Shown here: positions 2,070-7,933 of the stretch, one piece after another
Layout of the letters: each line of letters starts with the position of its first letter
Position numbering within the stretch: the first letter of the stretch is position 1
Source of the DNA: Gemmatimonadota bacterium
GTDB taxonomy: Bacteria > Latescibacterota > UBA2968 > UBA8231
DNA length: 18,288 nucleotides
Assembly (NCBI GenBank): GCA_002712305.1
Contig: PATE01000093.1
Coordinates: 1 to 18,288 of the forward strand
Reading direction: 5' to 3'
Position numbers and translations under genes: made by a program
Notes under the pieces: generated by a model
Seen by the model: only the letters and a program-made list of their open reading frames with translations
The model's database searches: none
What the model was told of the DNA's origin: nothing

Positions 2070-3377
2070 TCAGTCTTCGGTGTCGGGCGTACGGCCACCT
2101 GAATAGTTGTTGGTCGGGTCTTCGCCACCGGGGAACCAGCCGCCAGGTGTTTCCTCCCAGGCTCGACCGCACAACGAGGACAGCACGCGCCATTCACTCG
2201 CGCTGATCTGTGGGTCAGGATGAAACAGGAATCGAGTCGCGCCGGCCGCCTGCGAAGCTTCGAGGATCCCTCTCAGATCGCGGGCGGTCATGGCGTCGCC
2301 TGCATGTGGCGCTCGACCCGTGGACACCCAGAAGATCAGCTTCTGCGCGTCACCGCCGACTGCGGCAAGAGCGCGCTGTGTCTCTGATGTGACGATGTCG
2401 TCGAAGAACTCCTGCGGAAAGCCGAGTTCGAGATCCAGCAGGTTGTGAACACCTGGAAGACGCAGACCGAAGAGGTTCTCTACCACGAGCAGGGCATCCG
2501 CTTCGGTAAGGGCATCGTTCCAGCGACACAGTCTCTGCACCCAACGGGCGATGGTTCCGTACAACCCGTCGAATCCACGATGCCAGTAGTAGTGCTTGGG
2601 AAACACCAGGTCGAAGATGCCGCCCATCTGTTCGTAGTCCTGGCCGGTCAAGGGCGAGAAGGTCGCCGTGCGGGGAATCCCCCCCAGCTGTAGGGGGCGA
2701 TCGACGGCATCGACGGCGGCCCTGACATCTGTCCAGCGCTTGAGGGACATGGCGCGTCGTTGACGCAGCCAGTAGAGGGTATCCTCCTCCAGGTCGAACA
2801 GGGTCAGGCCACCGAAAGTTCCGCCCGGGGCCAGATAACGGACGCGCTCCGGGGTCAGTTGATGAAGCCCTCGGCGCAGGGCCTCGATTCCTCGCTGAAG
2901 CCGGTCGACATCGACTCCAGCCTCACTGTAGGAGGCATCTTCTCCCGGTCGGAGCTCCAGCAGTTCGCCTCCATGGTGGAAGGCGAGTTCGTAGTGATTC
3001 TCACCCGGTCCATCCACGATGAATCCACTGGTCTGCGGAAAGGCGTTGGCCTGATCCTGCAGGGCGGCAGAATTCGTGGATCCGCCGAAAATCATGATCT
3101 GCCAGCCTCTATTGGCGGCATTGTCGAGCATCGCCTGCAAGCGTTTCTCGCGGGCTGGGTCGGTGGGGACCTCGGGCACCGGCTCCCCGTGTGCTTCATA
3201 AACCTTGGGGTCTGGTGTCCAGGCACTTGCACTGCCACCATCGGGCAGACCGAATCGCATGTAGCCGATAACGAGTCCCCGAACGCCAGCCTCATGCCAG
3301 GCATCGAATCGCGCCTCGTGGTCGTCCATCCAGCGATCGAAGGGACCCGAGTTGTGGGCAAAGATCCAGAAATTCAT
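2070..3377 (-). CDS. Unrecognised 435-residue protein, translationally coupled to polB
   Basis: I do not recognise a family. The protein starts MNFWIFAHNSGPFDRWMDDH, has no signal peptide or membrane segment, and ends in a Gly/Pro/Asp-rich tail. Alternating hydrophobic strands and helices (GVRGLVIGYMRFG, WQIMIFGGSTN, FDLVFPKHYYWHRG, KLIFWVSTGR, ATRFLFHPDP) and many aromatic residues suggest a TIM-barrel, possibly glycosidase-like; this is only a fold guess. Its ATG overlaps the polB stop as ATGA (3377-3374), with AGGAGA at 3387-3382 four bases upstream, so it is co-transcribed and probably translationally coupled with the polymerase. That pairing is odd, because the other barrel enzymes in this window sit with sugar genes. 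A role in DNA metabolism is possible but unsupported by any motif. Confidence 0.75.
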   Translation of the reverse strand: MNFWIFAHNSGPFDRWMDDHEARFDAWHEAGVRGLVIGYMRFGLPDGGSASAWTPDPKVYEAHGEPVPEVPTDPAREKRLQAMLDNAANRGWQIMIFGGSTNSAALQDQANAFPQTSGFIVDGPGENHYELAFHHGGELLELRPGEDASYSEAGVDVDRLQRGIEALRRGLHQLTPERVRYLAPGGTFGGLTLFDLEEDTLYWLRQRRAMSLKRWTDVRAAVDAVDRPLQLGGIPRTATFSPLTGQDYEQMGGIFDLVFPKHYYWHRGFDGLYGTIARWVQRLCRWNDALTEADALLVVENLFGLRLPGVHNLLDLELGFPQEFFDDIVTSETQRALAAVGGDAQKLIFWVSTGRAPHAGDAMTARDLRGILEASQAAGATRFLFHPDPQISASEWRVLSSLCGRAWEETPGGWFPGGEDPTNNYSGGRTPDTED

Positions 3378-5935
3378 CTCGTCTCCTGTTGCGTCTCGGT
3401 TCCTGTCGCTTCAAAGGGCATGGCGCCATCAGAGGAAGCCGGCCGGCGGCGAAACAAGTCACCCATACCACCCAGGGCGACCTCTACATCGAGATCACAC
3501 ACCTGTCCGATGGTGCGCACAATGGGCCGGATCTGTTTCTCGATGTAGTGTTCATAGTCGATGGGTGCACGCCGATCATTGGCCGGCTGGGGCCCATCGC
3601 GCGTAACAACGTAGGAAATTGTCCCTCGTGGTGACGACTGCTGTCTTGCGGCGGCCACATGAGGCGGCACATTGCTCGTATAACTGTCCACCGATTTGCG
3701 CAGGGCCTTGCGATAGATGAGTTGCTCATCACACTCGCCCCGTCGGACGACATCGACCCATTTCAAAACGCGTGCCTCGAGTAGCTCGCCCGGTGCATCG
3801 TGGAACACCAGATCGAGCAGGTCCCTCTGCAATTCGTGGGCGACATCGGTCCAGTCGCGGCGCACAGCCTCCATGCCGATGATCTCGAGTTCCTCCTCGC
3901 CTTCGGCGGTGACCTTCAGCCCCGCGTATCCCTTGGCGCGGGCCCGTTCACTGTCGCCGCGCATGGGTGGTAGGAAGAAAGTCTGGTAGTACTTCTCAAA
4001 TTCGATTTCCAGGTGACTGTCCGTGTCGAATTGCTCACGCACGTGGACGGCAACCCGTTCGTTGATCCACCTGCAGAGCTCTTCCGCAGCGGCATGAGCC
4101 TCGGCAGGTGTCGAGTCGGCCGGTAGACGGTGATCGACAAACAGAGAGTCCGTATCGCCATAAAGGACCTCTCCCTTGCCACTGGACTGCAACTGCTCCT
4201 TCGCCCATCGAAGCAGGTGATGTCCGAATCCGGTGATGGCCCCGGCCAGTTCCTCTTCGGCAAAACGACATGACCCGGTGGCCAGAACGCCATAGAAGGA
4301 GTTCATCACGATCTTGTACGTGTAGGCAGCCAGATCATCGCCCTGCGCACGTGCCTGGGCCCGCTCCGCGAAAAACTCTTCGAGGATCTGTGGCAGGATT
4401 CCGGGTTCACGCACGAAACGAGCCCCGCCCGGTGCACGGATATAGGTCATGTCCGATTCGGGCAACAGACGATCGGCGGCATCGGATTGATCCAGCCCGC
4501 CTCGTTCAGTCGAATACGCACTTTCGTCCGAACCGTCCCGTGTCTGGGAGTCGAATTGGTGTCGGGCCTGCAGATACGTAAGGGGGTCGATGTTGAACGT
4601 GCGGATAATGGAGGGATAGAGGCTCTTGAAGTCGTAGACGAAGATGTTGCGATACAGACCCGCGGTGGTGGGCATGACCAAGCCACCCGGTGAGCCACCC
4701 AGTTTGACGCGATCGATGCCGGTGGTGGGTGCCACCATCTCACGTTGTCTCAGTCCGCAGATGTAGAGGAAGTCGAAGGCAGCCACCGAACCCCATGCTC
4801 GTTCGAGTGGCAGGCCCGTCAGACCACCGCGACGCAGACTCAACTGTACCAGATCCTCGGCCTGCAGGATGTCGCGAACCAGGCGTGTATCCTCTAGGCA
4901 GTAATCGCAGAAGACGGTACGGTCATTCTTCCAGGCGTCGAGAATCTTCTGCGGCATACTCCCGCCGTCCGCGTCGGCCTCCAGCGTCTTGCCTCGGCCC
5001 ACGACGGCGCGGGCGACCGTGTCGAGTCGGTAGTCGTCGTAGCGCTGCAGGGTGGACCGCACCAGGTGCATGGCATCCAGAACCTGACGGCCGTACACGA
5101 TGACGCGACTGCCCCCCCACGTATCGCCCTCCTGATACCATGAGTCGTCGGTGGACCGACCCAGGTTGAAGGGAATGCCGAGGGCTCGACAACGCTGCTG
5201 TAGAACGGTCAGATCGAAGTCGATCACATTCCATCCGGTGAGCACATCCGGGTCCATCTGGCGGATCCGCTCGACGATAGCCGCCACTAGGTGACGTTCA
5301 TCGGCGTGACAGTACACATGATCCGGGTCGTTGGTGCGCACATCTCCGAGCAGATGCACTTCTTCGACAGATTCATCGCCGCCCCAGTTCACGAAACCGC
5401 AGGACAGGATCTGCGAGGCGTCGGGCAAGGTCTCCAGGTCGAGGGCAAGGACATGCAACTCCGGTTCCCAGTCCGAAGGTGCCAGATCGGGTTCGACGTA
5501 GACACGGTCGACGCCCTGGCCCTTGCGCCAGGTGCCGGCGATGGTGACCGATCCACGAAGGCCGCGGTGAATCAGATACTGGCGGGGATAACCCAGGTCA
5601 GCTTCATAGGTTCGCAGCCCCGCCTTGTGCAGGGTCTCGGCCAGTCCGCGAACCTGAGGGACACGCCGGCAACCGACATGCTGCACCGGTTCGCCATCCA
5701 TCGTCGTCAGGGACGTCGCTTCAGCAGGAGCGATCTGGCCACCCCCGTGGCGGCACAGTTCGATCGCCGCCTCTACCTCGCTGGCACGAAGATAGAACCC
5801 TGGTCGTTGGCGCGGATCGACGAAGGCGAAGGTCTCACCAGATTCGAGTCGACCGATGCCGAAAATCGCCGCACCCGGTCCGTGCTGCCGGTGGTAGACG
5901 TGGAGGAGGAAACCTCTGTCAGAGGATGGATGCAA
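3374..5935 (-). CDS. polB: DNA polymerase II-type family B DNA polymerase
   Basis: This 853-residue protein carries every hallmark of a proofreading family B polymerase. Exo I is DLET (Asp166, Glu168), Exo II is NVIDFD (Asn236-Asp241) and Exo III is YCLED (Tyr345-Asp349). Polymerase motif A is DFKSLYPS (catalytic Asp435), motif B is KIVMNSFYG (541-549), motif C is YGDTDS (592-597), and the KGY motif is at 668-670. The N-terminal GFLLHVYHR and TYEADLGYPRQYL stretches and the C-terminal PIDYEHYIEKQIRPI agree with bacterial Pol II, which acts in DNA damage tolerance and replication restart. The segment between motifs A and B is about 30 residues longer than I recall for E. coli and is Asp/Ser-rich (about 457-500). 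The start is a TTG at 5935; an in-frame TGA lies a few codons upstream and no ATG suits the conserved N-terminus. All catalytic residues appear intact. Confidence 0.95.
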   Translation of the reverse strand: MHPSSDRGFLLHVYHRQHGPGAAIFGIGRLESGETFAFVDPRQRPGFYLRASEVEAAIELCRHGGGQIAPAEATSLTTMDGEPVQHVGCRRVPQVRGLAETLHKAGLRTYEADLGYPRQYLIHRGLRGSVTIAGTWRKGQGVDRVYVEPDLAPSDWEPELHVLALDLETLPDASQILSCGFVNWGGDESVEEVHLLGDVRTNDPDHVYCHADERHLVAAIVERIRQMDPDVLTGWNVIDFDLTVLQQRCRALGIPFNLGRSTDDSWYQEGDTWGGSRVIVYGRQVLDAMHLVRSTLQRYDDYRLDTVARAVVGRGKTLEADADGGSMPQKILDAWKNDRTVFCDYCLEDTRLVRDILQAEDLVQLSLRRGGLTGLPLERAWGSVAAFDFLYICGLRQREMVAPTTGIDRVKLGGSPGGLVMPTTAGLYRNIFVYDFKSLYPSIIRTFNIDPLTYLQARHQFDSQTRDGSDESAYSTERGGLDQSDAADRLLPESDMTYIRAPGGARFVREPGILPQILEEFFAERAQARAQGDDLAAYTYKIVMNSFYGVLATGSCRFAEEELAGAITGFGHHLLRWAKEQLQSSGKGEVLYGDTDSLFVDHRLPADSTPAEAHAAAEELCRWINERVAVHVREQFDTDSHLEIEFEKYYQTFFLPPMRGDSERARAKGYAGLKVTAEGEEELEIIGMEAVRRDWTDVAHELQRDLLDLVFHDAPGELLEARVLKWVDVVRRGECDEQLIYRKALRKSVDSYTSNVPPHVAAARQQSSPRGTISYVVTRDGPQPANDRRAPIDYEHYIEKQIRPIVRTIGQVCDLDVEVALGGMGDLFRRRPASSDGAMPFEATGTETQQETR
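3382..3387 (-). promoter_or_regulatory. Shine-Dalgarno for the gene overlapping polB
   Basis: On the minus strand this reads AGGAGA, four bases before the ATG at 3377, inside the last codons of polB. It supports the ATGA-overlap start and translational coupling. Confidence 0.6.
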
Positions 5936-5975
5936 GGCGGATCCGTGGTTTGATCACCAGATGGAGGGTGGTTCA

Positions 5976-6001
5976 ATCTACTATACATTCGTGTAGTAGA
6001 T
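5976..6001. promoter_or_regulatory. 26-bp imperfect palindrome upstream of polB, candidate operator
   Basis: The two 13-base half-sites agree at 10 of 13 positions: each outer arm is ATCTACTA followed by one variable base and AC. The core has the form ACTAYAC-N4-GTRTAGT. The site lies 41 bp upstream of the polB TTG start. On the minus strand it contains TATAGT (5985-5980), which could serve as the -10 element for polB, so a bound protein would block transcription. E. coli polB is a LexA-regulated SOS gene, so a LexA-type operator is a reasonable hypothesis. This core does not match the classical E. coli or Bacillus boxes, but LexA sites differ strongly between phyla. It could also act on the plus-strand gene at 6199. 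The symmetry is seen; the regulator is inferred. Confidence 0.5.
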
Positions 6002-6198
6002 CAAGCCATGCCTACTTGCACGACAAAGATCGCCAGCGCCTGCACAGGCCTCTGGTTCCTCAGGCGGACGTGATATTGCAGGTGTGATCCGTCACTGTGG
6101 CGAGGATTGACTCCTGCTGCTATCCTCATCAGTTCTACAGGTTCATTCTTCCTCACGGGGATGAATCAGCCCTGGCAATACAAAGCGACGGGGACGCT

Positions 6199-6750
6199 AT
6201 GCCATCGGAAATAGGCGTCGCCGCCGAATCCGCTCACGAAACGATTCTGGACGGGATGCACGGTGGCGATGACCACCCGGACCGGGGCTGGATCAGGTGG
6301 GTTGCTCTTACGGCGATGATCCTGGCCTTGTTTTCGGCGGTCGGTTGGCGGGCATTACGTCCAACGAGTCTCTGATGGAACGCACGGAAGAGATCCTCGA
6401 CCTGTCGAAACTGGAGAGCGACCGTTTGCACATCGAGGTGCTGCGCTTGAAACACGATCTGCTTCGATCGCTGGACAAGCCAGTCGAGGCGCTCTGAGCC
6501 GGAGAGGATTCGCCAGTACGAAGACGAATCCGCCACGCTAGCGATCTCCGTTGCTCGTGAGCAGGTGCAGGTGACGATGGCAGACGCAAAGCACAACATC
6601 TTCGCCCTGGGTGTTACTCTGCTGTCCATTGCCATTACGCTCAGCGGCATGGCCACCGTCGTTGATCGGCCATTGTTGTGGCACGTGGGGATCGTTTTTG
6701 GTGTGGCCGGCAGCGGCCTTGTCGCGCGGGGGATCGTTCGCTACCTGTGA
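6199..6750 (+). pseudogene. DUF4337-like membrane protein, broken by two frame changes
   Basis: Three consecutive frame pieces read as one protein. Piece one (6199 to about 6350) starts MPSEIGVAAESAHETI, with the WIRWVALTAMILALFSAVG transmembrane segment. Piece two (about 6350-6494, shifted frame) reads AGITSNESLMERTEEILDL and then LRLKHDLLRSLDKPVEA. Piece three (about 6491-6750, back in the first frame) reads ERIRQYEDESATLAISV, then two more membrane segments ending GSGLVARGIVRYL. The order (helix, soluble coiled segment, paired C-terminal helices) is that of DUF4337-type proteins. The second break fits loss of one CT unit from a CTCTCT run near 6490; the first fits loss of one base near 6340-6355. 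The two changes restore the frame overall. A sequencing error is as possible as real decay. An upstream GTG at 6097 gives an unconvincing extension. The family function is unknown. Confidence 0.6.
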
Positions 6751-6814
6751 TCTGCGAGCTTGAAAGGCTCCCCACCCTGTAAAACTGTCTGGATCATTCG
6801 AGGACACATCAGAA

Positions 6815-7933
6815 GTGAAGAGCCAACTCTCGACCAATCTCGGACTTCCCCTGATCGACCTGGCAGACGCCCCGCCCCGGCCGGGAGCGCATCGGCACGC
6901 GATCGTGGACCAGGTCGAAGGGTACTATCTGGGACAGCCCGACACGCTGCTGTTGGAGGACGGTCGAACGATTCTGGTGGCCTATCCCAACGGCCACGGT
7001 GGCCCCGACACGATTCTGAAGCGCTCCACCGATGCAGGACTCTCCTGGAGTGATCGTCTGCCGGTGCCAGCCAGTTTCGTCGGAGCGCATAACGCGCCGA
7101 CGATCCATCGACTCATCGATTCTGACGGCAAGCGCAGGATCTTCCTCAACACGTCCTTTCCTGCTATGCGGTCGTCGCTGTCGGAAGACGACGGCAAGAC
7201 ATGGACCGATCTGGAGCTCATGTGGCGAAAAAACAAATGGCGCCGCGGCTTCAAGGGGCATGCGCCGATGAAGTCGGTGATCCCCATCGACTGTGGGGGC
7301 TATCTGGGGATGTATCACGATCATTTCGAGGATGATGCAGGGCAGCAGGTGGTCATCCCCTTCACGACGGTGACAACCGACGGCGGGCTGACGTGGTCGG
7401 ATCCGATCCGCGCGGGCGTGCACACGTCTCAGCCCGGCGCCCAGCCATGCGAGCCCTGTCTGCTGCGCAATCCTGCAGACGGCAGGATCGTGGCACTGCT
7501 GCGGGAAAACTCGGGGGATCACCAATCGCTGATGATGTACAGCGACGACGACGGGCAGAGCTGGTCTGAGATGACGGAGGTACAGCCACCTCTGACCGGC
7601 TCTCGCCACATCGCCCGCTTCTCCCCCGATGGGCGCATCGTCGTCACGATGAGAGACACTGCCACCGACAGCTCGACCCATGGCGACTTTGTCGGCTGGG
7701 TGGGCACCTGGGATGACCTCATCCACGCAAAGCCAGGCCAGTATCGGCTGCGACTGCTGCGTAATCATGGCCGCCCAGGTGACACGGGTTACGCCGGTCT
7801 CGAGGTGTTGCCCGATGGTAGCTTCGTCTCTACGACCTACTGCGTCATGGCCCCCACTGAGTCACCCCTCGTGGTCAGTCTTCGATTTGACCTCGATGAG
7901 ATCGATCAGCTGGCGACGAACCTCGATGGTTGA
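6815..7933 (+). CDS. Sialidase-like Asp-box (BNR repeat) beta-propeller protein
   Basis: This 372-residue protein has four Asp-boxes of the form S/T-x-D-x-G-x-T/S-W: at 71-78, 123-130, 187-194 and 243-250. They are spaced as the blades of a six-bladed sialidase-type propeller. Candidate catalytic residues are Arg230 in LLRENSGD, Arg280 in VTMRDT, and the Tyr pair in FVSTTYCV (341-342) after a typical GYAGLEVLPDG strand. Family members hydrolyse terminal sialic acids or other glycosidic bonds (GH33-like). There is no signal peptide, so it appears cytoplasmic and may act on imported oligosaccharides. The start is GTG at 6815 with AGGA about eleven bases upstream, so the exact N-terminus is uncertain. 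Asp-boxes alone do not prove sialidase activity; a non-sialic acid substrate or a binding role is possible. Confidence 0.8.
   Translation: MKSQLSTNLGLPLIDLADAPPRPGAHRHAIVDQVEGYYLGQPDTLLLEDGRTILVAYPNGHGGPDTILKRSTDAGLSWSDRLPVPASFVGAHNAPTIHRLIDSDGKRRIFLNTSFPAMRSSLSEDDGKTWTDLELMWRKNKWRRGFKGHAPMKSVIPIDCGGYLGMYHDHFEDDAGQQVVIPFTTVTTDGGLTWSDPIRAGVHTSQPGAQPCEPCLLRNPADGRIVALLRENSGDHQSLMMYSDDDGQSWSEMTEVQPPLTGSRHIARFSPDGRIVVTMRDTATDSSTHGDFVGWVGTWDDLIHAKPGQYRLRLLRNHGRPGDTGYAGLEVLPDGSFVSTTYCVMAPTESPLVVSLRFDLDEIDQLATNLDG

Follow-up and report, generated by a model that had tools for sequence, protein, structure and literature searches.

Does the palindrome just upstream of polB in this stretch of Latescibacterota DNA serve as an operator, and if so, for which regulator? 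The window, by which we mean the whole stretch of 18,288 nucleotides that was analysed, reads ATCTACTATACATTCGTGTAGTAGAT at positions 5976-6001. An earlier note on this DNA had placed the palindrome as an operator for polB, possibly a non-classical SOS box, and the geometry it described is borne out by the sequence: the half-sites agree at 10 of 13 bases, and 41 bp separate the site from the polB start, a TTG at 5935 on the minus strand. Judged on its symmetry alone, the site does not stand out. The 18-kb window has seven 26-bp stretches that reach 10 of 13, where dinucleotide-model shuffles give 4.2 on average, and 11-base arms around a 4-base gap agree at 10 of 11 positions once, with 0.42 expected. 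This symmetry is not significant and lies within chance for 18 kb, so that the evidence has to rest on recurrence and conservation; for this palindrome, conservation is decisive. On these grounds we read the palindrome as the probable LexA (SOS) operator of polB, with a probability of roughly 0.88. The features of the locus are collected in Table 1.

Table 1. Proposed features of polB and its control region (positions in the window)
Feature	Position	Strand	Basis
polB, DNA polymerase II, family B, 853 aa, TTG start	3374..5935	-	Pfam, NCBIfam, solved relatives
Predicted polB -10 element TAGATT (18-bp spacer)	5975..5980	-	Alignment with lexA and recA promoters
Predicted LexA box of polB, TACAC-GAAT-GTATA (5+4+5 bp), inside the -35/-10 spacer	5982..5995	-	Pattern matches and conservation
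Predicted polB -35 element TTGATC	5999..6004	-	Three polB promoters from two genera all share TTGAT
Extended imperfect inverted repeat around the box (arms 17, loop 4)	5970..6007		Sequence and RNA fold

By its domain and model matches, polB is a bona fide DNA polymerase II gene. Its product carries the exonuclease and polymerase domains (Pfam DNA_pol_B_exo1 and DNA_pol_B), scores 632 bits against the NCBIfam DNA polymerase II model NF004421 (cut-off 570), and has as its closest solved structures 1q8i and 3k57, both annotated as DNA polymerase II. A 435-aa open reading frame at 2070-3377 on the minus strand overlaps the end of polB by 4 bases and is a probable operon partner; it has no Pfam or NCBIfam match. 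On the other side, about 0.8 kb (6001-6800) between the polB operator and a BNR-repeat protein gene (6815-7933, plus strand) holds no convincing gene.

The LexA-box pattern TRMACNNNNGTNYASTA matches once in the window, where 0.01 matches are expected. Read on the minus strand, the predicted polB promoter, TTGATC-TAC-TACAC-GAAT-GTATA-G-TAGATT, follows the layout of lexA promoters with a spacer of 18 instead of 17. Relative to the box, its TTGATC is placed just as TTGACA is at lexA and TTGACG at recA (spacers of 17 bp at lexA and 18 bp at recA), and in all three predicted promoters the box sits between -35 and -10. The polB elements are not reported by a generic consensus promoter scan. The suggestion that TATAGT is the polB -10 element had to be given up: once polB is aligned under the lexA promoter layout, TATAGT becomes the inner operator half-site and TAGATT the likely -10. 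Scored with a matrix built from lexA promoters only, under an independent-base null model, the polB site of this genome reaches 9.8 of 22.8 bits, a value that about 1.5-2% of 200-bp stretches attain by chance. It is weaker than the recA site (16.8 bits) and than the orthologous polB sites (12.1 to 20.8 bits) on the same matrix. A null drawn from all fetched loci was dropped, since these loci had been chosen for boxes and were hence contaminated with them. Taken alone, the site is not convincing; together with the placement of the -35 element, the orthologs and the sibling promoters, it is. A weaker operator could leave polB with partial basal expression.

Conservation was followed, as the earlier note had suggested, in the upstream regions of polB relatives, 14 orthologs of which had readable upstream sequence. 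The box is kept in five of them, from three genera (G000, G001, G012, G013 and G019), and the other nine show no convincing box within 200-600 bp upstream. In two of these nine, G005 and G009, polB seems to lie close behind another gene. The same-genus relative G001 has CTTGATCTACTGCACTTTTGTGTAGTAATTT upstream of polB, with the box TGCAC-TTTT-GTGTA, and G012, from another genus and with a polB about 64% identical, shows CTTGATAGCTGCACGAATGTATAGTATCG with the box TGCAC-GAAT-GTATA. In the alignment of these regions, most of the DNA varies around a constant TTGAT, box core and 3' GTA; a gene-proximal stretch, CARACC...GGATC, is similar as well. Further copies stand 83-85 bp upstream of polB in G013 (TGAAC-TGAT-GTNCA-GTA) and G019 (TGTAC-CGAT-GTGCA-GTA).

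A counterpart of these boxes stands in the promoter of lexA itself, a gene found in 55 of the 60 genomes searched, G001 included. In the family, each of the 20 lexA upstream regions read shows TTGACA, a LexA-type box and a TA-rich -10 element, in the arrangement TTGACA-AA-TGMAC-N4-GTKCA-GTA followed by an AT-rich -10, with the box in the -35/-10 spacer. In genus g4, one base of the right half-site is different (for example TGAAC-TTTT-GAGCA-GTA in G017), and the box also precedes further lexA genes of the class beyond these 20. The lexA site of G001, TTGACAAATGCACGAATGTGCAGTAAATAT, has the GAAT spacer and the 3' GTA in common with the polB site of our genome, TTGATCTACTACACGAATGTATAGTAGATT. As read from these alignments, the lineage motif is TGMAC-N4-GTKCA(G/C)TA, and the polB site is a divergent copy of it.

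Domain searches of this genome's assembly found neither LexA nor an S24 domain. To the left of lexA, G001 is matched collinearly by contig C141, which breaks off at its base 7, within an fn3-protein gene and 2.8 kb short of where synteny with G001 would place lexA. Nothing in the assembly matched the genes that follow lexA to the right (MOFRL, era-like, purD), and a dedicated family search did not find purD either. Because the syntenic contig stops before lexA and the neighbouring purD is missing too, the absence of lexA is best and most simply explained by an assembly gap, and a genuine lack of classical LexA is the less likely reading.

Within the genome, the exact core put forward at the outset, ACTAYAC-N4-GTRTAGT, does not recur: a genome-wide motif search finds it only at polB. 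Allowing up to two mismatches gives nine sites, fewer than the 29 of the reversed control. Two of these near-matches, on C37 and C50, were discarded as coding sequence common to two contigs; the near-match is duplicated because the ends of these contigs (L005, L006) share a radical SAM (menaquinone-pathway-like) coding segment, possibly an assembly redundancy. What recurs is the related box. In pattern searches, from which all genome-wide counts derive, the stringent promoter pattern TTGAN{3,6}TRMACNNNNGTNYANTA has exactly two matches, at polB and at recA (TTGACGAGGTGCACAAACGTCCACTATTCT). The box-only pattern has eight, against six for its reversal, so that the count by itself is uninformative and the gene context is what informs. 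Two of the eight lie on contig C108. One precedes an imuB-like gene (L287:4472-5800), whose promoter TTGACC-N17-TATACT carries the box TGCAC-AAAC-GTTCA over the -10 element. The other, TGAAC-AAAT-GTTCA, lies over the -10 element of an equally built promoter (TTGACC-N17-TATACT) before a DUF6504 gene and a dnaE2-like polymerase gene (L287:9410-13386). The first assignment is based on sequence character, position and weak matches to DNA polymerase IV models, with no Pfam match; the dnaE2-like protein has an error-prone polymerase model as its best hit, at 861 bits and thus below the cut-off of 939. Another of the eight leads to ssb, where the promoter-oriented box, TGCAC-ATTA-GAGTA-GTA, is one base off the pattern, and the orthologous place in G001 has the exact box TGCAC-ATGT-GTATA-GTA. 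The remaining relaxed matches, on C91, C100 and C114, fall across reading frames and are probably due to chance. The expectation of one motif before recA, lexA, imuB or dnaE2 thus holds for related boxes, at this genome's recA, imuB-like and dnaE2-like genes and at the lexA genes of relatives, and fails for the exact core.

Two further observations concern recA and ssb. Their promoters contain a 33-nt inverted repeat, GGTGCACA-N17-TGTGCACC (recA, L279, C10:11598-11640; ssb, L288:1903-1940), listed together with that of G001 ssb (L289), which can be read as a pair of LexA-type boxes that overlap and are set 15 bp apart, with one occupying the spacer and the other covering the -10 element. The genome also has two full recA genes, on C10 (L021) and C84 (L022); the SOS promoter box stands only at the C10 copy, with no obvious box in front of the one on C84.

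Across the class, the stringent pattern of promoter and box has 140 matches in 47 genomes, our own included, against 5 for the reversed control. Among about 50 sites read, the first genes downstream include lexA, recA, ssb, uvrA, polA, polB, a gyrB/parE-type topoisomerase, a sigma-70 factor and radical SAM proteins. Less direct downstream genes are an AlkZ-like glycosylase, a macrodomain protein and efflux parts. The downstream gene was taken mechanically as the longest open reading frame starting within 450 bp, which makes individual assignments outside repair uncertain. Outside the class, 13 genomes, most of them with lexA, yield a single match, and none of the few lexA upstream regions read there has such a box. 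What the sequences compared show directly is that the box exists, where it lies in the promoter, that it recurs at SOS genes and that it is conserved. A sigma-70 factor gene stands behind an SOS-type promoter in several genera (L138 and L140 in G046, L144 in G043, L149 in G028, L173 in G044), and a gyrB/parE-type topoisomerase gene stands behind the same kind of promoter pattern in genera g4 and g7 (L161, L165, L166, L167, L176).

Could the site act in RNA instead of DNA, as a hairpin that forms a leader attenuator or terminates an upstream gene? The extended repeat does fold well (-16.7 kcal/mol, z -4.2), but the stem lacks a following T-run, and a terminator scan reports no intrinsic terminator at the palindrome; searches for a tRNA or Rfam element there returned none. 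In the polB upstream alignment, G001 and G012 keep the 14-bp core and the -35 element but not the outer arms, and the same box also stands in front of lexA, recA and further repair genes. Furthermore, by alignment the transcription start of polB lies downstream of the box, which would leave the box out of the transcript from the polB promoter. We regard an RNA hairpin as very unlikely.

A different dimeric repressor, dedicated to polB or belonging to an unrelated regulon, would account for an exact core found only at polB and for an assembly that contains no lexA. Such a protein would, however, have to recognize a site whose core, spacing and promoter placement are those of lexA promoters, and the half-sites at polB of the relatives (TGCAC, GTGTA/GTATA) match lexA-type half-sites; moreover, the loss of lexA coincides with a contig end and with lost neighbours. 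This makes a separate repressor highly improbable. Chance symmetry, shared with the same-genus relative merely through recent common descent, agrees with the expectation of about four palindromes of such quality per 18 kb. It is hardly credible given that the box is also present in G012, where the upstream DNA has largely diverged, and in G013 and G019, and that the site fits the lexA promoter layout. The SOS part of the original proposal, that LexA controls polB, is thus supported by recurrence and conservation; its exact core and its -10 element are not. The motif is also not radically non-classical, as some boxes contain GAAC-N4-GTTC exactly.

By analogy with established SOS biology, we infer LexA binding, repression and induction at polB. 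LexA dimers on TACAC-GAAT-GTATA, between TTGATC and TAGATT, would exclude RNA polymerase. After DNA damage, RecA filaments would promote self-cleavage of LexA, and polB would be released from repression along with recA, ssb, the imuB-like and dnaE2-like genes and lexA.

None of the papers in the collection searched describes LexA in this lineage. Taken together, the data quite likely define, for this Latescibacterota-type class, an SOS regulon and a LexA motif that have not been described before, the motif being TGMAC-N4-GTKCA within the -35/-10 spacer. The regulon would comprise lexA, recA, ssb, uvrA, polA, gyrB/parE-like, sigma-70 and radical SAM genes and, in some members of the lineage, DNA polymerase II beside an imuB-like/dnaE2-like cassette, with tandem overlapping boxes at recA and ssb forming a 33-bp dyad. 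The mechanism as such is ordinary SOS control. Nevertheless, starting from one palindrome, the SOS motif of a largely uncultured lineage can be fixed, which yields a list of probably damage-inducible genes and would place DNA polymerase II under LexA-type control beyond the proteobacteria, where this is textbook knowledge. A motif intermediate between GAAC-N4-GTTC and GCAC-N4-GTGC also helps to trace how LexA specificity drifted between phyla.

The box family itself is already known, in a Gram-positive and in a Fibrobacter-type form. The Gram-positive (Bacillus-type) LexA box has the core GAAC-N4-GTTC. Like it, the lineage boxes are 5+4+5 bp palindromes in or over the promoter, and the core occurs exactly at lexA of G015 and at the dnaE2-like gene of our genome (TGAACAAATGTTCA). 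Unlike it, many lineage sites read TGCAC, so that C replaces the first A of GAAC, and their other half has G, C or A; our polB has ACAC-N4-GTAT. The LexA box of Fibrobacter succinogenes is TGCNC-N4-GTGCA; the lexA boxes of G001 and G005 are exactly TGCAC-N4-GTGCA, although the phylum is different and other lineage boxes use TGAAC and GTTCA. In Escherichia coli, polB (dinA) is the LexA-repressed gene for DNA polymerase II and the LexA motif is CTGT-N8-ACAG, so that the enzyme family and the proposed control are the same and the motif, here TGMAC-N4-GTKCA, is not. For the Balneolaeota, another little-studied phylum, a LexA regulon was inferred from lexA promoters; it includes recA, lexA, translesion polymerases and a radical SAM protein, and binding to its motif, the direct repeat TTACACATATTTTWTACATA, was tested by gel shift (PMC7739468). 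That regulon is the closest parallel to the one proposed here, with a direct repeat as its motif where the proposed lineage motif is a palindrome.
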